This document shows positions 17,278 to 26,493 of a stretch of DNA of 27,890 bases, piece after piece. Position 1 is the first letter of the stretch. The number at the start of each line of letters is the position of its first letter. Source of the stretch: a virus. The stretch covers positions 1 to 27,890 of the IMG/VR virus record IMGVR_UViG_3300020472_000136. One strand, 5' to 3'. The notes under the pieces are model-generated. The model did not search any database. It was not told where the DNA came from and worked only from the letters and a program-made list of their open reading frames with translations. The position numbers and the translations under genes were made by a program.

Positions 17278-20200
17278 ATGGGTTTATCCAGACTAGAAAA
17301 TTTTCTTAAGAATGTGCGAGGTAATATCCTGTACGTGAGTCCAAATGATTTGGATGCGACGGATAGTATTGACAATAAAGGAAATTCATTAACCCGTCCT
17401 TTTAAGACCATTCAAAGGGCTCTTGTTGAGGCATCAAGGTTTTCATATCAGCAAGGTTTAGATAATGACCGTTTTGGTAAGACTACAATCTTGCTATATC
17501 CTGGTGAGCATGTAGTAGATAATAGGCCTGGTTGGATTCCGATTCAGAATTTAGAAGCAGATACATTTAGATTAAGAGATGGTACAAATAGTACAGATTT
17601 TAGTGCATGGGATTTAACAACAACATTTGATTTAAATAATGCAGATAATGCACTTTACAAACTTAATAGTATTCATGGTGGTGTAATTATTCCTCGTGGT
17701 ACTTCACTTGTAGGTTTAGATTTAAGAAAGACAAAGATAAGACCGAAATATGTTCCAAATCCAACAAATGATAATATTGAAAGATCATCACTTTTCCGTG
17801 TAACTGGTGAGTGTTATTTTTGGCAATTCTCTATATTTGATGCAGATCCTAATGGACTTTGCTATGTTGATTATACAACGAATACATTTGTTCCTAATTT
17901 CTCACACCACAAACTTACTACATTTGAATATGCTGATGGTGTCAACAATGTAGATATTAAGGATACTTATCAGACTTATGGTACTGATCGTACTGATCTA
18001 CAGATGTACTATGAGAAAGTAGGTCTTGTATATGGAACTGCTAGTGGTCGTGCAATTTCTCCAGATTATCCATCATCTGCAATTGATATTCAACCAAAAG
18101 TTGATGAATATCGTATTGTGGGTTCTACAGGTAAATCTGTTGGTATTTCAAGTATTAAGGCAGGTAATGGAACAATAACTAGTGACACTATTACTGTTAC
18201 AACTACAGAAGCTGTTGCTGGACTTGATGTAGATACTCCTATTGTTATTGAAGGTATTACTGCTGATGGTTATATTGGTAAGTATGTTGTTAGTGAGAAA
18301 GTAAATAGTACTCAATTTAAGTATGAGGTACAAGATCAACCCGTAGATCCTTTACCTACAATTACAAGTGCAACAGTAGCATTAAGTTCTGATACTGTAA
18401 CATCTTCTTCTCCATATATCTTTAACTGTTCATTGAGATCAGTTTATGGTATGAATGGTCTTTTTGCTGATGGTAATAAGGCAACTGGATTTAAATCTAT
18501 GGTTGTTGCCCAGTTTACTGGTATTGGTTTACAGAAAGATGATAAAGCATTCTTATTATATAATTCAACAACTGGTGTATATGATGACAGTACTGTTCCT
18601 GGAAATGATAATTTAAGTACTAATTCAAGAGCAATATTTAAACCAGCATATGTAAACACTCATATTAAGTGTACTAATAATGCTGTTATTCAGGCTGTTT
18701 CTATCTTTGCGATTGGATATGCTGAACATTTTCTGGTAGAAACTGGTGGTGATATGTCAATCACCAACTCTAACTCCAACTTTGGATCAAAATCTTTAAT
18801 TTCTTCTGGATTTAGACCTGATGCATTCTCTCAAGATGATAAGGGATATATTACTCATATTATTCCACCTAAGCAACTTCCTATTACTGAGAATGCAATT
18901 GAATTTAATGCAGTTGATATTGCTAAAACTGTTGGTGTAGCATCAACAGGACATTTATTTCTTTATGATCAGACTAACTTTGATGCTCCTCCAGAAAACG
19001 TATTGGAAGGATATAGAGTTGGTGCAAAAGAGTTAGATACTCTTAGTGTCTTAGTTCCAGCTGATTCTGGAATTTCTTCTGAATATAGTTCTCGTATTGT
19101 GATGCCAGATTCTCAGTCTAGTTCTGAGAAGAAATTTGTTGTAGATAGAAGTTCTGCAGGTATTAATAGTATCACAAGTAATATTGTTACATTAACTGAG
19201 GCTCATACCTTTGCTAATGCAGAATCCGTTCGTATTTTAAGTGATAATGGTAGATTACCTGATGGATTGAAGTCAAATACTGTTTATTATGTAATTACTA
19301 ATGATAATGCTAGTTCGGGATTAACTTCTACTACCGATATTAAATTTGCAAAAACTGAGACAGATGCTAAAAATGCTTCTGGATTAACAATTAATAATCT
19401 TGGTGGAACTCTTGATGTTGTAAGTAGAGTATCTGATAAGAATTCTGGTGAAATAGGACACCCAGTTCAGTGGGATACTAATCAGTCTCAGTGGTATATT
19501 AAGGTATCTACTGCTTCAACTGATAATGCAGTTTACAATAATGTTGTTGTTGGTTTAGGTACTACTGCATTAGGAACTGCAACTCCAAGGTCATATATTA
19601 AGAGAAAATCTGATAATAGATCTGCAAATGATACATCTTATAGGTTAAGATATGTAATTCCTTCATCTAATGGTGGAGCAGTTGCAAGACCTCCTACAGA
19701 TGGATTTATTATTCAAGAATCCAATACTTCTATTGGATCCACTAATGCTGAAATTCAGACGTATTTTGGATCAGGTTCTTTAAGTCATGAGAATGAGCAA
19801 AGAAACTTTAGGTTTATTGCAAATGCTAATTGGTCTTCTAATGTAGCAAATATTCTTACAGAACTTCCTCATGATCTTTCTGTAGATTCTAGAGTACAAC
19901 TTGTTAATATTACTAGTGGAGTTAATACAACTGGTGTAGGTAACTCTGGATACAATGGTACTTATTATGTAACTGGTATTACAAGTGCAAGAGAATTTAC
20001 TGTTGGTATAAACACCAGTCCTGGTGCATTTACTAATGATACTCTTACAAGAACTACTGCACTTCCTTACTTTAAGAGAAAGAATTATAAGACAACCTAC
20101 TTTATTCAAGATGCAGAAGAGCTTCAACAGTATGTTCAAGGTGAACAGGATGGTATTTACTATCTAACTACATTAAACTCAACAAACAAACCATCAGTAG

Positions 20201-23200
20201 ATCCATTTACTTCTGAAAAGTTTGCACAGAATGTTCAAAATTTATTCCCACAAACTGATCGTGATACTCCTGTTTCTGATGCAGATCCTGCAATTTCATA
20301 TGCGGTTTCTCAACCAATTGGCCAAGTTATTGTAGATAATGTTAAAAGGAGTGTTACAAAGGAAACAGTTAATAAACTTATTGATGACGTTGATGTTGGT
20401 GTTGGTTTAACTGATGTTATTACTGCTGTTGGTGGAACAACACATAGATTTAATACTAGTTTGGATCATGGATTTAATCGTATTACCAAAGTAAGTATTG
20501 CAAGTAGTGGTACTGGTTATGGTACGGGGGTTGATGCTGATTATTATAATGCTAAATTGGTTTCTATAGGTGCTTCAACTACTGGTGCAAATGCTACAGC
20601 GAAAGTTGGGGTAGATGCTACTGGTGGTATTGTTAGTGTTCTAATAATGGATGGTGGTAGTGCCTATGGTATAGGTAATACTCTAAATGTTGTTGGTATT
20701 GCTACTACAGGAACTCATGCAGAGGCAGTTGTAACAGTTGATAAGATCTATGATAACGTTGGCGATATTGTTAGAATTGCTGGTGTAACTTCTGCAACAT
20801 ATAATCAATATAATACAGTTTATAGGATTCGGGGTGTTGAAGTGGGAGGATCGAAGAGCTTTACTGCTGTTTGTGATCCTGCTGTTACTGGTGTAACAAC
20901 CGCAGGTATAGGAACTGTACCTTTAGATACTGCTTCTGTATATCTAACTGGTAGAGGAATTCAAGTAAGTAATATTTCATATAATACTACAAGTGGACTT
21001 GCAACTGTTACTTCAATTAATAATCATGGATTAAAAGCGAATGCTAAGGTTAGAGTTTCTACTGGTATTGGTGGTACTCTTGGTGCATGGGATGACAGTT
21101 TTGTTGTTAAGCAGAATGTAAGTCAGACTAAGTTTATATTGAATATTGGTGTTGGTAAGACATCGGCACATGTAGCAGCTGCATCTTCAATGTTTGCTCT
21201 TCGTGAGGGTATTACATCTAATGATGGTATTCCAACACTAGAAGATGAGAGTTTGAATGGTAGAATGGTACCAACATATGCTGGTATTACAACCACTCTA
21301 TCCTCTAATATTTCTGATGCTGTTACAACTAATGTAAGTCTAACTGATATTGCTAATATTGGTATACAGATTGGTGATTATCTGTCTATAGATAATGAGA
21401 TTGTTCGAGTTAAAGCAACTCCATCCAATCCAGCAGCAAACCCATTAACAGTATTCCGTGCAGTTTTAGGAACAAGAGCAACTACTCATAGTAGTGGAGC
21501 TGTTGTTAGAAGGATTAAACCATATCCTATTGAATTAAGAAGACACTCTATCAACAGAGCATCTGGACATACATGGGAATATGTTGGGTATGGGCCTGGT
21601 AACTACTCAACAGCACTTCCAGATAAGCAAAATCGTGATATATCTGACGTAGAGGAAGTATTAGCACAAACTACTAGGAAAGATGGTGGAGTTAACTACT
21701 TCACAGGTATGAATGATAAGGGTATATACTACGCTGGTAATAAGAAAGTAAGTACTGTTAGTGGAAAAGAGGAAATCTTTGACACTCCTGTTAGAACAGT
21801 AACAGGTGAAGATATTTCTAATAAGTCTTCAATTAACTTAATTAATGCAACTGAAGGTACATTTACACAATCTATTCGTGTAGATGGTGGTGATGAAGGT
21901 AAAGCAATCTCAGAATTTACTGGACCTGTTGTCTTTACTAATAAGGTAACTTCAACTGCTGCTAGAGGTTTTGAAGCAAATTCACTCTTTATTCAGGGTG
22001 ATGCTACTGTTTCTAGAAAATATACAGTAGGTATTGCTACTCCAACTAATGCAGGAACTCCTGGTGATGTAATTTATGATGAGACTCCAACTCAAGGAGA
22101 ATATCTTGGTTGGGTTTATACAACAAATAGTGATTGGAAGAGATTTGGTCCTATTAGTTTAGGAAAGACTGATAATACTTACGTCTTTGATAAGTTAGGA
22201 ATCAGTATTGGTGCAGGTGCTACTGCAGGTACTCTTGATGGTTCTGTTTTACGTATTGGTGCAGGAACTACATTAGTTGCTGTTAATGCTGGTATTATTA
22301 CTGCTACTGGTGGACTTCATGTTGGTACAGCAGCGACTATTTACAGAAATGGTAATGCAACATTCTCAGGAATTGTAACAGCATCAAGTTTCGTTGGAGA
22401 TGGTTCAAATCTATCTGCATTAAATGTATCAGCTGCTGGTTGGTCACAAGTTCAAGAGGCTTATGCAGGTGCTGGTAACACTGGTGTTTATGCATATGCA
22501 TCTGGTGATGTAGATACTGCAAGAGTTGGTATTGGTACTTCGGTTCCTCACTTTAATCTTGATTTGGGTGATACAACTGCTGGTGCTGCAAGAACTGCTC
22601 TTTATGTTAGAACCAGAGCAGAATTTAAGGATCAACTTACTGCTGTTAATGTAAATGTAAGTACTGCACTAACAGCAACTAATAGTTATCATTTACATGA
22701 TACATCAGGTCAGATTTATGCAGGTATTATAACTTCAACTAATATAGTTGTTGGAAGTAGTGGAACTGCTATTCAAACAAGTAGTTCTTCATTCATTGGT
22801 TTCGGAACTGCGACACCAAGGTCTAAGGTTGATATTGATGGTAGATTAAGAGTTAAGTCTCTTCATGAAAATGTTGAGGAACTTGATATATCATCGGGTA
22901 ATGTCAATGTTGATTTGGCTCATGGTCAATCCTTTAACTTGAATATTGATGCAGCAGTAACTGGATTTACTATTTTAAATCCTCCTGCAGACGCAACCGC
23001 ATTCACAATTAAGATTACTCAAGGATCAACTGCTTATTCCGTTGGCATAGATACCTTTACTAATAATTCAACTGGAGCAGGATCAACAGTATTCTGGCCA
23101 GGTGCAGTTGTTCCAATAGTTACTCAAACTGCCAATAAGACAGATGTTTATTCATTCAAGACTTTTGACTCTTGTGCAAGTCTGTTTGGTATAGTTGGTG

Positions 23201-23217
23201 GTCAAAACTTTGCTTAA
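17278..23217 (+). CDS. Giant beta-helix/tail fibre structural protein
   Basis: A 1979-residue protein. Near the N-terminus, ILYVSPNDLDATDS...LTRPFKTIQRALVEA and TTILLYPGEHVVDNRPGW (17-86) is the start pattern of right-handed beta-helix proteins (extracellular 'YV.P...PFKTIQ.AL...I.L.PG.Y' type), with many Ile/Val/Gly-rich strands following. I know similar ~2000-residue proteins as virion structural proteins in cyanomyoviruses. Residues about 1068-1150 contain SSGTGYG and MDGGSAYG repeats shared with the gene at 10937. At about 1650-1710 a fibre module (GGLHVGTAATIYRNGNATFS) is shared with the gene at 14291. The last 140 residues (IGFGTATPRSKVDIDGRLRV then VKSLHENVEELDISSGNVNV, and a C-terminal AVVPIVTQTANKTDVYSFKT) resemble a fibre tip domain. 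A tail-associated spike or fibre is likely. The exact place in the virion is unknown. Confidence 0.75.
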   Translation: MGLSRLENFLKNVRGNILYVSPNDLDATDSIDNKGNSLTRPFKTIQRALVEASRFSYQQGLDNDRFGKTTILLYPGEHVVDNRPGWIPIQNLEADTFRLRDGTNSTDFSAWDLTTTFDLNNADNALYKLNSIHGGVIIPRGTSLVGLDLRKTKIRPKYVPNPTNDNIERSSLFRVTGECYFWQFSIFDADPNGLCYVDYTTNTFVPNFSHHKLTTFEYADGVNNVDIKDTYQTYGTDRTDLQMYYEKVGLVYGTASGRAISPDYPSSAIDIQPKVDEYRIVGSTGKSVGISSIKAGNGTITSDTITVTTTEAVAGLDVDTPIVIEGITADGYIGKYVVSEKVNSTQFKYEVQDQPVDPLPTITSATVALSSDTVTSSSPYIFNCSLRSVYGMNGLFADGNKATGFKSMVVAQFTGIGLQKDDKAFLLYNSTTGVYDDSTVPGNDNLSTNSRAIFKPAYVNTHIKCTNNAVIQAVSIFAIGYAEHFLVETGGDMSITNSNSNFGSKSLISSGFRPDAFSQDDKGYITHIIPPKQLPITENAIEFNAVDIAKTVGVASTGHLFLYDQTNFDAPPENVLEGYRVGAKELDTLSVLVPADSGISSEYSSRIVMPDSQSSSEKKFVVDRSSAGINSITSNIVTLTEAHTFANAESVRILSDNGRLPDGLKSNTVYYVITNDNASSGLTSTTDIKFAKTETDAKNASGLTINNLGGTLDVVSRVSDKNSGEIGHPVQWDTNQSQWYIKVSTASTDNAVYNNVVVGLGTTALGTATPRSYIKRKSDNRSANDTSYRLRYVIPSSNGGAVARPPTDGFIIQESNTSIGSTNAEIQTYFGSGSLSHENEQRNFRFIANANWSSNVANILTELPHDLSVDSRVQLVNITSGVNTTGVGNSGYNGTYYVTGITSAREFTVGINTSPGAFTNDTLTRTTALPYFKRKNYKTTYFIQDAEELQQYVQGEQDGIYYLTTLNSTNKPSVDPFTSEKFAQNVQNLFPQTDRDTPVSDADPAISYAVSQPIGQVIVDNVKRSVTKETVNKLIDDVDVGVGLTDVITAVGGTTHRFNTSLDHGFNRITKVSIASSGTGYGTGVDADYYNAKLVSIGASTTGANATAKVGVDATGGIVSVLIMDGGSAYGIGNTLNVVGIATTGTHAEAVVTVDKIYDNVGDIVRIAGVTSATYNQYNTVYRIRGVEVGGSKSFTAVCDPAVTGVTTAGIGTVPLDTASVYLTGRGIQVSNISYNTTSGLATVTSINNHGLKANAKVRVSTGIGGTLGAWDDSFVVKQNVSQTKFILNIGVGKTSAHVAAASSMFALREGITSNDGIPTLEDESLNGRMVPTYAGITTTLSSNISDAVTTNVSLTDIANIGIQIGDYLSIDNEIVRVKATPSNPAANPLTVFRAVLGTRATTHSSGAVVRRIKPYPIELRRHSINRASGHTWEYVGYGPGNYSTALPDKQNRDISDVEEVLAQTTRKDGGVNYFTGMNDKGIYYAGNKKVSTVSGKEEIFDTPVRTVTGEDISNKSSINLINATEGTFTQSIRVDGGDEGKAISEFTGPVVFTNKVTSTAARGFEANSLFIQGDATVSRKYTVGIATPTNAGTPGDVIYDETPTQGEYLGWVYTTNSDWKRFGPISLGKTDNTYVFDKLGISIGAGATAGTLDGSVLRIGAGTTLVAVNAGIITATGGLHVGTAATIYRNGNATFSGIVTASSFVGDGSNLSALNVSAAGWSQVQEAYAGAGNTGVYAYASGDVDTARVGIGTSVPHFNLDLGDTTAGAARTALYVRTRAEFKDQLTAVNVNVSTALTATNSYHLHDTSGQIYAGIITSTNIVVGSSGTAIQTSSSSFIGFGTATPRSKVDIDGRLRVKSLHENVEELDISSGNVNVDLAHGQSFNLNIDAAVTGFTILNPPADATAFTIKITQGSTAYSVGIDTFTNNSTGAGSTVFWPGAVVPIVTQTANKTDVYSFKTFDSCASLFGIVGGQNFA

Positions 23218-23227
23218 GGATTAAAAA

Positions 23228-25225
23228 ATGAGTAATAAGATTTGGGACGAAAAGACAACTGATTTTCCTCTTAATGGACCTGATATGTCCATTACGACTG
23301 ATACTACAAGATCAGTTACTAATGTTGCTCCCAATGGACAAACTGGTGGTAGTGAATCTACTTCAGTATCTTTTACTGGAGTAGCGACTTGTACTTTTGA
23401 TAGCGGAGCTGCCACTGATGGTAGAATTGTATATCAATGGTATGAAAATGGAGTTGGCCCAGTAGGAGTATCTACAAGATGGTCTGGTGAATCTACTGAT
23501 ACTTTAACTATAAATTATGCTCTTAGTCCAGAAGATAACGGTAAGCAATATTATTTTCAAGCAAGTTATGTTCCTGGTGCAGTAGATGGTGATACTTATA
23601 GTGGTAGTTCAGGGGAACCTCTTAGTGAACCTGTATCATCTACTCCTGCAACATTAAATGTTCTTCCAGAATTGTTTATAGCATCTGGTATTACATCATC
23701 AACAGTTTCGGTTGATACTAATACAACATTTAGTTGTCTGGGTGGTATAAATGCGGATAAAATTTCTTCATATGATACGTCTCAAGAAAATGATATAACT
23801 TATCAATGGTATGTGGATGGTTCATCAGTTAGCAATGGAACAAGACAAACAACTATATCTGCAAATACTTATACAAATACTTATGGGATAGGTAATCATA
23901 GTATAACTTTACCCGATGATGCTACTAATGTAAGTATTACTGTTACTGGTGCAGCAGGTGGATCTGCTGGTGGTGATGCTGGTGGAGATGGTGGTGGTGC
24001 TGGTGAAGGAAGAACAGGAAAATTCTCTATAGCAGATGGAGCAAGAGTATTAACAATTAATGTTGGTAGTCGGGGTGGTAATGGAGGGCATCATAGCGGA
24101 AATGCTCCTGGTGGAAGTGCTGGTGATGGTGATGTAAGTGGTGGTGATGGTGGAAGAGGTGGTAATTCAGGTCAACGTGGAGCATCAGGTGCTGGTGGTG
24201 GTGGTGGTGCTGGTGTATATGTTTATGATAGTGTAAGTGCTGGATATATTATCGCTGCTGGTGGTGGCGGAGGAGGAGGAGGTGGAGCTCATAATTGTGG
24301 TACTGGTGAAGAAGGTGGTAATGGAGAAGGTTGGCAATCTGTTTCTGGATCATTAACTGGATTTAATAATGGTGCTAATGGAACTGATTTGGGAGGTGGT
24401 GATGGTGCTGGAGGCGGTGGCGGCGGTGGCGGCTATCGTGGAGGTAGTGGCGGTGGATCTCAAGGAGACTGCGGTGGTGGAGGTGGTGGTGGTAGAAGAT
24501 GTTTTACCCCAGATACATTAGTTTTAATGCAAGGTTATTTTGACAAGGAAAATAATAAGTATCAATATGAGGAGAAACCAATATCTGAAGTAAAAGTAGG
24601 CGAATATGTAGTTAATAAAGATAAGAAAGAAGTAAATAGGGTTACTTTTATTGAAAAACATGAACCTAATCTTTTACCTGATGAAGAAAAATTATATTCT
24701 CCTAGTCCAGAAGTTAAACCTTTTGCTACAGAGAATCATGGATTGTATATTGATGGAAAATGGGTAGCAGTGGATACAGATTGTTTTCCTTGGTTTGATC
24801 ATTTTAATATTCAACCAGTTCAAAATCCTATTTCTGAACCACTTGGTGATAATATGGTAATGTATAATGTATGGTTAACTGGTGATGGTACTTATATTGT
24901 AAACGGATATGGAACTCATTGTGGTTTGTATGATGGTGGTTGGATGAGACAGTGTTGGGAACAAGGACTTCTTAAACATGAAGAAGTTATGAATTTTTTA
25001 TATGAATATGGTGGGGAAAAACAGCATTTAAAATACGGTGCTTATTTGACTAGTAAGATTATAGGGAAATTTAATAATAAATTGTTAAATAGATTTGGAG
25101 TTTATATGATATGTGCAGATGATTCTACTATTCGTAAAAAAATAGCAGAAGGTACGATGCAAGTTTTACAAATAATTCCGTTGTTTGTAAATAAATCAAG
25201 AAGATTTTGGAGGAGGTTTAAGTAA
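23228..25225 (+). CDS. Ig-like/Gly-rich adhesin with C-terminal Hint domain
   Basis: A 665-residue protein with several parts. (1) N-terminus of about 40 residues. (2) One clear Ig-like domain (about 43-146), with Cys55, YQWYENG and DNGKQYYFQASY, and a second, shorter one (about 151-220, with YQWYVDG). (3) A Gly-rich region (about 240-424) with IIAAGGGGGGGGG, as in the glycine-rich (polyglycine-II/ALK-type) domain. (4) A Hint (intein/hedgehog) domain (425-565): Cys425-Phe-Thr-Pro-Asp-Thr is the block A start, VKVGEYVV is the following core strand, TENH (501-504) the block B TxxH, and TYIVNGYGTHC (555-565) the final block. The usual terminal His-Asn is replaced by His564-Cys565. (5) About 100 residues of basic, helical tail. 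It is likely a fibre or adhesin that cleaves itself. AAGGA precedes ATG by 7 bases. Confidence 0.75.
   Translation: MSNKIWDEKTTDFPLNGPDMSITTDTTRSVTNVAPNGQTGGSESTSVSFTGVATCTFDSGAATDGRIVYQWYENGVGPVGVSTRWSGESTDTLTINYALSPEDNGKQYYFQASYVPGAVDGDTYSGSSGEPLSEPVSSTPATLNVLPELFIASGITSSTVSVDTNTTFSCLGGINADKISSYDTSQENDITYQWYVDGSSVSNGTRQTTISANTYTNTYGIGNHSITLPDDATNVSITVTGAAGGSAGGDAGGDGGGAGEGRTGKFSIADGARVLTINVGSRGGNGGHHSGNAPGGSAGDGDVSGGDGGRGGNSGQRGASGAGGGGGAGVYVYDSVSAGYIIAAGGGGGGGGGAHNCGTGEEGGNGEGWQSVSGSLTGFNNGANGTDLGGGDGAGGGGGGGGYRGGSGGGSQGDCGGGGGGGRRCFTPDTLVLMQGYFDKENNKYQYEEKPISEVKVGEYVVNKDKKEVNRVTFIEKHEPNLLPDEEKLYSPSPEVKPFATENHGLYIDGKWVAVDTDCFPWFDHFNIQPVQNPISEPLGDNMVMYNVWLTGDGTYIVNGYGTHCGLYDGGWMRQCWEQGLLKHEEVMNFLYEYGGEKQHLKYGAYLTSKIIGKFNNKLLNRFGVYMICADDSTIRKKIAEGTMQVLQIIPLFVNKSRRFWRRFK
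24500..24922 (+). other. Hint (autoprocessing) domain coding segment
   Basis: Codons 425-565 of the adhesin gene. The first Cys (24500-24502) follows a run of Gly and two Arg residues. The TxxH motif is at codons 501-504. The last Cys is at 24920-24922, where an intein would end with His-Asn before a Cys/Ser/Thr. Absence of the Asn suggests that splicing is lost and N-terminal cleavage at Arg424/Cys425 is the more likely reaction. There is no homing-endonuclease insertion between the blocks (the whole domain is about 140 residues). Confidence 0.7.
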
Positions 25226-26493
25226 TGGCTGGTCGTGGAACTGGAGGACAAAGTGCCTTTAATAGTCAAGTAGCTAGTCTTACTGGCAATGATACTACTG
25301 GTGGGGTCAATCCTCAAGTTGTTGTTCAGTATACATCTGCTACTCAGGGTGGAGGTGCAACTCAAACAATAAACACTGTTATTTCTGGTGCAACTAGTAG
25401 TACTATGACTATTAGAGCAGATAAAGTTACTACTCAAGAAATTAAATGTAAGATATCTCATCCAACTGCGGCATTGAATAAAGCAGATGCTGATGGGTCT
25501 ACAACAGTTTCAGGTGGAACTTTAAGTGGAGGATTGGTTACTAAAACTGCAGATTTTGAGACTATTAGTGCTATTAATAAGTCAAGATCTATGGTAGATT
25601 GGGAAGTAGTAGATGATATAACAAATAGTCGTTCTGGATTTAGTCAGAATCTTTTCCTTGGTGATATTGCAATGCAAGGAGATGATAATAATCCTTATAG
25701 GGCTTTTATTCTTTCTCCTCCAGAAGAAAATATTGCAGTGAAAGTAACAATGGGAGGAGGAAAAGGAAAGGGATATAATGGAAGAAGTGGTGGACAAGGT
25801 GGTACAACGGTTTTTACTTATACACTTCAGAAAGATGTTGAATATGTATTTAAATTTGGTAGTGAATCTTCAGCTCCTCCTGATGCTCTAGGTGGTGGTG
25901 GAGCAGCTGCATATTTTTATGAAAAGGGTAGACTTTTAGTTGTTTGTGGTGCAGGTGGTGGTTCTGGTTGGTCTGGTGGAAATGGTGGTGCAGGTGGCGG
26001 TGCATCCGTTTCTGGTGCTAATGGTGGAGGATCATCTGGGGGATCTGGTGGTCAGGATATTTCTGATGGTCAACTTCCTTCTGCTGGAATTATTCCTACG
26101 GGTACAAATGGTGGTAAAATAGAGTCTTGTACTACTGGGGTGTATTGGGCTAATCAGGGTAAAGCACCTTGTGAAGGTTTGGGAGGAAATGATAGATTTA
26201 GAACCTATGATGGTACTTTAGTATCCAGTAGTATGAACATTCAAAGGGGTTATAAAGCAGACAATAATCCTAGAAATGGATTTAGATGTAATGGGGGTAA
26301 TAGTTTTACTGTTGAAAATGGAAGTTATGTAGGTGGTGGTGGAGCAGGTGCATATGGTGGAAATGCTACTACTTCTGGTAATTCAGGTGGTGGTGGAGGA
26401 AGTGGATATACGAATGGAAGTGTTGCAATTCAAAGTACTCAACAGGGCGGTAATCCTTCAGAAACGGCATATGCTATAGTTGAATTAGTATAA
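25225..26493 (+). CDS. Glycine-rich adhesin/fibre protein
   Basis: A 422-residue protein that begins immediately (one-base overlap) after the Hint-containing gene, with AGGAGG at 25211-25216. Its N-terminal half has beta strands including GATSSTMTIRADKVTTQEIK. The C-terminal half is a Gly-rich domain: VTMGGGKGKGYNGRSGGQGG, AYFYEKGRLLVVCGAGGGSG (the 'YFYEKGRLLVVCGAGGG' strand-Gly motif seen in ALK-type glycine-rich domains), then YVGGGGAGAYGGNATTSGNS and GGGGGSGYTNGSVAI near the end. It probably folds into polyglycine-II helices like known phage adhesins. There is no Hint domain. Cys residues at CGAGGG, SCTTG, APCEG and FRCNGG could form disulphides outside the cell. Likely a receptor-binding adhesin working with the preceding gene. 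Confidence 0.7.
   Translation: MAGRGTGGQSAFNSQVASLTGNDTTGGVNPQVVVQYTSATQGGGATQTINTVISGATSSTMTIRADKVTTQEIKCKISHPTAALNKADADGSTTVSGGTLSGGLVTKTADFETISAINKSRSMVDWEVVDDITNSRSGFSQNLFLGDIAMQGDDNNPYRAFILSPPEENIAVKVTMGGGKGKGYNGRSGGQGGTTVFTYTLQKDVEYVFKFGSESSAPPDALGGGGAAAYFYEKGRLLVVCGAGGGSGWSGGNGGAGGGASVSGANGGGSSGGSGGQDISDGQLPSAGIIPTGTNGGKIESCTTGVYWANQGKAPCEGLGGNDRFRTYDGTLVSSSMNIQRGYKADNNPRNGFRCNGGNSFTVENGSYVGGGGAGAYGGNATTSGNSGGGGGSGYTNGSVAIQSTQQGGNPSETAYAIVELV

Follow-up and report, generated by a model that had tools for sequence, protein, structure and literature searches.

A putative self-processing Hint domain with a helical tail at the C-terminus of a predicted phage virion protein

The C-terminal 241 residues of ORF1, a protein encoded in a 27,890-base IMG/VR virus record (hereafter the window, meaning the whole stretch of DNA analysed), are proposed to form a Hedgehog-like self-processing module composed of a catalytic Hint domain and a helical tail (Table 1). 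Self-cleavage before Cys425 is our best reading of this module and its most likely function, and the conservation of its residues makes it reasonably probable. The layout of the module also appears Hog-like, with a tail resembling an adduct region placed behind the Hint domain.

Table 1. Coordinates of ORF1, its parts, the putative active-site residues and the neighbouring genes in the window
Feature	Position	Strand	Description
Tail fibre protein	17278..23217	+	Conserved upstream neighbour of ORF1; phrog_529 tail fiber and synteny
ORF1	23228..25225	+	665 aa, open; two Ig-like stretches, Gly-rich region, Hint, helical tail
Gly-rich region, residues 231-424	23918..24499	+	43% Gly; GGGGGGGRR at its end, just before the putative cleavage site
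Hint domain, residues 425-565	24500..24922	+	Predicted from AlphaFold model, VIA fold matches and Pfam matches of relatives
Cys425 (Hint Cys1)	24500..24502	+	Putative N-S acyl shift nucleophile; scissile bond Arg424-Cys425
Glu476 (E52 of the module)	24653..24655	+	Glu in 43/43; aligned with D46 (D303, the general base) of Hedgehog
TENH, Hint block B (TxxH), residues 501-504	24728..24739	+	Thr77 43/43, His80 43/43
Cys565 (module position 141)	24920..24922	+	Occupies the terminal-Asn position of inteins; aligned with Hedgehog C400
C-terminal helical tail, residues 566-665	24923..25222	+	Five helices, basic: net +8 for 567-665
ORF2	25225..26493	+	Conserved downstream neighbour of ORF1; phrog_24848 positions 390-792

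ORF1, its Hint fold and the helical tail

Genes of the window match tail genes and cyanophage relatives, including those for a tail tube, baseplate hub, hub lysozyme and tail fibre. ORF1, whose Ig-like stretches were assigned by eye from the sequence, matched the profiles phrog_24848 (E = 4.6e-30) and phrog_2155, a virion structural protein (E = 8e-19). Together with its place adjoining the tail fibre gene, the evidence says that ORF1 is probably a virion structural protein; the name 'adhesin' given in the preliminary description had been a guess from the Gly-rich region only. On ten contigs of the window type (L021-L030, some of them near-duplicates), the fibre gene is followed by ORF1 with the module, and an ORF2 homologue comes next in nine; the exception, L029, stops shortly past ORF1. 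The window groups in one clade with eight non-redundant relatives of its type.

Queried alone against Pfam, NCBIfam and the PDB, the window sequence matched no Hint family, and tblastn in phages and a related-locus search with the same query returned nothing useful, so that the domain was revealed only through relatives and fold. Relatives were found with a degenerate DNA pattern encoding GDGTY.VNG[YF]G (GDGTYIVNGYG in the window), which retrieved 14 IMG/VR contigs; an alignment-based scan from these yielded 53 loci, some sharing a contig, and a final alignment (A2) of 43 non-redundant sequences, in which the window is joined by its relatives from uncultured phages. Outside the invariant residues, identity to the window among family sequences is 26-58%. 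Against a family profile made with the window left out, residues 425-665 of the window scored E = 8e-75; among 2000 shuffled versions of these residues, the best value was E = 0.0025.

Members of the alignment matched the Pfam families Hom_end_hint and Hint (24 of 43) and Vint (21 of 43) at E≤0.01. The relatives matched five Pfam Hint families altogether, with best values of 1e-8 for Hom_end_hint, 2e-5 for Hint and 5e-6 for Vint; among the full-length carriers scanned, gathering scores were passed only by L062 (two Hints). The best PDB matches of the family profile were likewise Hint proteins (BIL2, PI-SceI, 2lwy and Vint). An AlphaFold model of Hint and tail together was confident (pLDDT 94.2, pTM 0.88), and its comparison with solved structures by VIA gave Z scores of 14.4 for BIL2 (6y75), 12.3 for the gp41-1 intein, 11.6 for Vint and 11.3 for Hedgehog (1at0). 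In all, 75 chains reached Z≥8, and all 50 among the matches listed were Hint proteins, covering module residues 1-144. Residues 425-565 are thus predicted to adopt a Hint fold, established as far as prediction can.

These results confirm the observation in the preliminary description and support part of its interpretation. It had proposed a Hint domain from the motifs CFTPDT (425-430), TENH (501-504) and TYIVNGYGTHC (555-565) behind a run of Gly. All of these occur as claimed, after the Gly-rich region (231-424), and the range that it gave, 24500-24922, corresponds exactly to residues 425-565, where the family profiles, the conserved catalytic residues and a confident model similar to solved Hint structures strongly support a Hint domain. 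The profile search that it recommended was blank for the window alone but succeeded for the family of 43, and the structure prediction it had called for produced a confident model with a Hint fold rather than one without. Its extent and its typing of the domain were incomplete: the tail at 24923-25222 is also part of the module, and it had been missed together with the lost splicing Asn; these two features settle the type of Hint.

The tail, of ~100 aa, is found in every complete relative. Across the family it has a mean net charge of +5.8 and amphipathic helices, with a transmembrane-strength segment missing from 42 of 43 tails, and in the model its last helix spans 30 residues. Modelled alone (pLDDT 85), the tail had no match above Z 2.1 among 15 PDB candidates and none with E≤0.001 in BFVD; blank structural matches do not prove a new fold. 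By analogy, its place behind the Hint domain parallels that of the sterol or adduct recognition region of Hog proteins.

Active-site residues and the proposed reaction

The first Cys of the Hint domain is kept in all 42 family sequences that cover the position and, with the invariant Thr77 and His80 of block B, completes the set of residues for an N-S acyl shift. At module position 141, 42 of 43 sequences have Ser and only the window has Cys; the following residue is Ile in 41 and Gly in two. No sequence has Asn at this place, which by known chemistry excludes splicing and Asn-dependent C-cleavage. Nor did any of the 43 show the class 1 intein signature (a terminal Asn, Gln or Asp with a Cys, Ser or Thr nucleophile) or the type A BIL C-terminus (His-Asn lacking a +1 nucleophile), and the class 1 layout, in which a conserved host protein is interrupted and continues as a C-extein, was not seen, the module being terminal in all complete relatives. 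An ordinary splicing intein, excised while joining ORF1 to a C-extein, would account for the Hint fold, Cys1 and block B, but it is scarcely credible given the lack of a terminal Asn or Gln in 43/43 and a module that runs to the C-terminus with a tail conserved as part of it, and for want of that Asn we rejected it.

From these conserved residues we infer cleavage at Arg424/Cys425. In the proposed reaction, Cys425 would attack the carbonyl of Arg424 in an N-S acyl shift to a thioester, helped by Thr501 and His504, and a nucleophile, its entry aided by Glu476 and the tail, would then take the thioester; candidates for this acceptor are water, thiols, lipids and proteins. The Ig/Gly-rich virion part, ending at Arg424, would be released from the Hint and tail piece, and neither splicing nor Asn-dependent C-terminal cleavage enters the proposal, since the terminal Asn is missing. 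Chemical linking of the N-terminal part of ORF1 is possible by analogy, because the architecture looks Hedgehog-like rather than intein-like. In 23 of 41 relatives, as in Hedgehog, Gly precedes Cys1, and in the window Arg does; this Arg, and Glu rather than Asp at E52, count against a Hedgehog-like cleavage. The same Arg at -1, and Cys instead of Ser at position 141, would suit a catalytically silent Hint retained as a structural tip domain. We consider such a domain unlikely, as Cys1, Thr77, His80 and Glu52 are invariant despite the low overall identity to the window, and a structural domain would not need them.

Tandem Hints, two or three per phage protein, occur in L062 (4417-6645), L065 (1285-6642) and L067 (1255-6645), where the upstream Hints end in a canonical AHN-K or VHN-K and the last is of the window type with a tail. 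Most of the upstream Hints also have Glu or Asp near the E52 position; an acid here is therefore not unique to a Hog mechanism, and the E52 acid is consistent with Hog chemistry while being no proof of it.

Carriers of the module and homologous loci

The module forms the C-terminus of every complete carrier, usually behind runs of Gly, Pro or Arg, and its position behind such linkers on several carriers is counted in favour of self-cleavage. The carriers fall into nine N-terminal groups lacking detected mutual similarity, the largest of which is partly joined via the tandem Hints, and include at least three virion proteins: the Gly-rich/Ig protein of the window, DUF4815 structural proteins and baseplate hub/tail lysozyme-like proteins. 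Baseplate hub (gp5-like) proteins with the Hint and tail module at their end are encoded at L034 4888-6660 and L058 5191-6693. Exactly one module was present in 35 of 38 virus records, whichever the carrier and including contigs of 161, 152 and 101 kb, while the remaining three hold the tandem Hints within one protein. Between the closest pairs, dN/dS was ~0.05-0.22 for Hint and tail alike, and the module is under purifying selection. It is an optional, mobile accessory that stands outside the core virion protein.

Loci homologous to that of the window illustrate this. In S-SM2 gp031 (L003 8001-10538) and in marine virus AG-345-O18, the N-terminal part of ORF1 is fused to ORF2 and there is no Hint; the two parts are one protein there and two genes in the window (23228-26493) and its nearest relatives. 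SynMITS9220M01 gp028 (L002 7992-9842) also lacks a Hint and has long polyPro and polyArg runs followed by a different helical-looking tail, a C-terminal part of ~170 aa that is unmatched among other phage records. Because S-SM2 holds both halves in one chain, we considered trans-ligation of ORF1 onto the N-terminus of ORF2; this is unsupported, as ORF2 homologues start with Met-Ala/Ser/Gly and have no N-terminal Cys, and SynMITS9220M01 is split without a Hint.

The same distribution bears on what the module would do. Hint and tail might serve as an intramolecular chaperone or trimerisation aid, comparable to the Peptidase_S74 domains of other tail fibres, and be cut off by hydrolysis after folding, a role suited to a consistently C-terminal position, usually after flexible Gly/Pro/Arg linkers and on virion proteins wherever the carrier can be named, and to a helical tail with a 30-residue last helix. 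That homologous carriers (S-SM2 gp031 and the AG-345-O18 fusion to ORF2) manage without a Hint, and that the same module sits on unrelated folds, leaves this folding aid possible but on balance not likely. More doubtful is a Hog-type conjugation in which the tail would act as an adduct-recognition region and a lipid, a sugar/glycan or a protein would be joined covalently at Arg424, with one tail protein modified per virion. The combination of a Hint and a basic amphipathic helical tail modelled as one unit (pTM 0.88 for the whole module), an invariant acid that sequence alignment places at the Hedgehog general-base position, the lost terminal Asn and a single module on different proteins in 35 of 38 records all point that way; however, the tail has neither a detectable relation to the sterol recognition region nor a convincing structural match, and sterols are generally missing in bacterial hosts, where the part would have to be played by a bacterial lipid or by a further virion protein. 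Finally, the released piece of 241 residues with its basic tail could be a membrane-active or injected factor on the tail tip, as a baseplate hub among the carriers and the amphipathic basic helices might suggest, but 42 of 43 tails have no transmembrane-strength segment and no similarity to known effectors was found, making this highly improbable. After self-cleavage before Cys425, the thioester could be resolved either by hydrolysis, the module being a disposable helper, or by Hedgehog-like transfer to an adduct.

When member L015 and family consensus queries were searched against 50,697 phage records, no record contained a Hint plus the tail. Matches covered at most the Hint part; the genes concerned carried annotations as helicase, terminase, P-loop hydrolase or hypothetical, and other matches lay in unannotated records, while >1000 phage records matched the DUF4815-type carrier region. 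The clearest match in the genome collection, L074, is on a 3,960-base contig of an Erysipelotrichaceae MAG (DITO01000002.1); it is close to viral contig L066, and is thus probably a phage contig binned into that MAG.

Phage terminases and nucleotide reductases are known to contain inteins (PMC3556154). BFVD includes entries named 'Hint domain containing protein [uncultured Caudovirales phage]', so Hints are not in themselves new to phages. In the openly accessible literature, we found no description of a Hint domain carried by virion proteins of cyanophages or of other phages. If active, the module would be a mobile, mostly single-copy device for self-cleavage or conjugation on structural proteins of uncultured phages, with active-site residues that are Hedgehog-like rather than intein-like. 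It would offer a new route for phage tail proteins to mature or attach to a partner, suggest a use that can be tested for the conserved helical tail and provide, for protein engineering, a new source of N-terminal thioester chemistry, as well as a bacterial-virus setting in which to ask about the origin of Hog-type processing; were Hog-type conjugation true, it would represent Hedgehog-like protein modification in viruses of bacteria.

Comparison with known systems

Peptidase_S74 intramolecular chaperones of tail fibres are C-terminal, auto-cleaving and common to unrelated phage tail proteins, but differ from the phage Hint and tail module in both chemistry and fold. Within the Hint proteins, BIL domains (Tetrahymena BIL2 6y75 and C. 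thermocellum 2lwy) provide the closest fold, at the Z of 14.4 given above, and the closest profile match (E=1e-4), and BIL2 shares with the module an N-x-V that lines up in the HMM alignment. BIL2 carries a terminal Asn (N143; the construct whose structure was solved has it mutated), whereas the module has Ser or Cys and a conserved helical tail, and BIL2 has no acid at the E52 position. Vint, of VWA-Hint proteins (PDB 8r2c), shares the Hint fold and the Pfam matches already described, but is eukaryotic and also lacks an acid at E52 in the HMM alignment.

The Hedgehog Hog domain (1at0) shares the Hint fold (2.5 A over 113 residues), the CFTP start, Cys1, TxxH, the lack of a terminal Asn and a helical C-terminal region after the Hint; by sequence alignment, an acid is also placed at the D46 (D303) position and, in the window, Cys565 at that of C400. 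D303 and C400 are described as Hedgehog residues that inteins lack, D303 being the general base for cholesterol transfer (PMC9163320). In sequence alignment, E52 fell on D46 and residue 141 on C400 in 8/8 MAFFT variants, while the TxxH register was recovered in only 2/8, and hhalign and HMMER aligned just the first 30-33 residues locally, the match being weak beyond block A. Differences are that the module has Glu where Hedgehog has Asp and that its carriers are phage proteins, and no sequence or fold link was found between its tail and the sterol recognition region. We file the module with the Hint superfamily, not as a member of Hedgehog.
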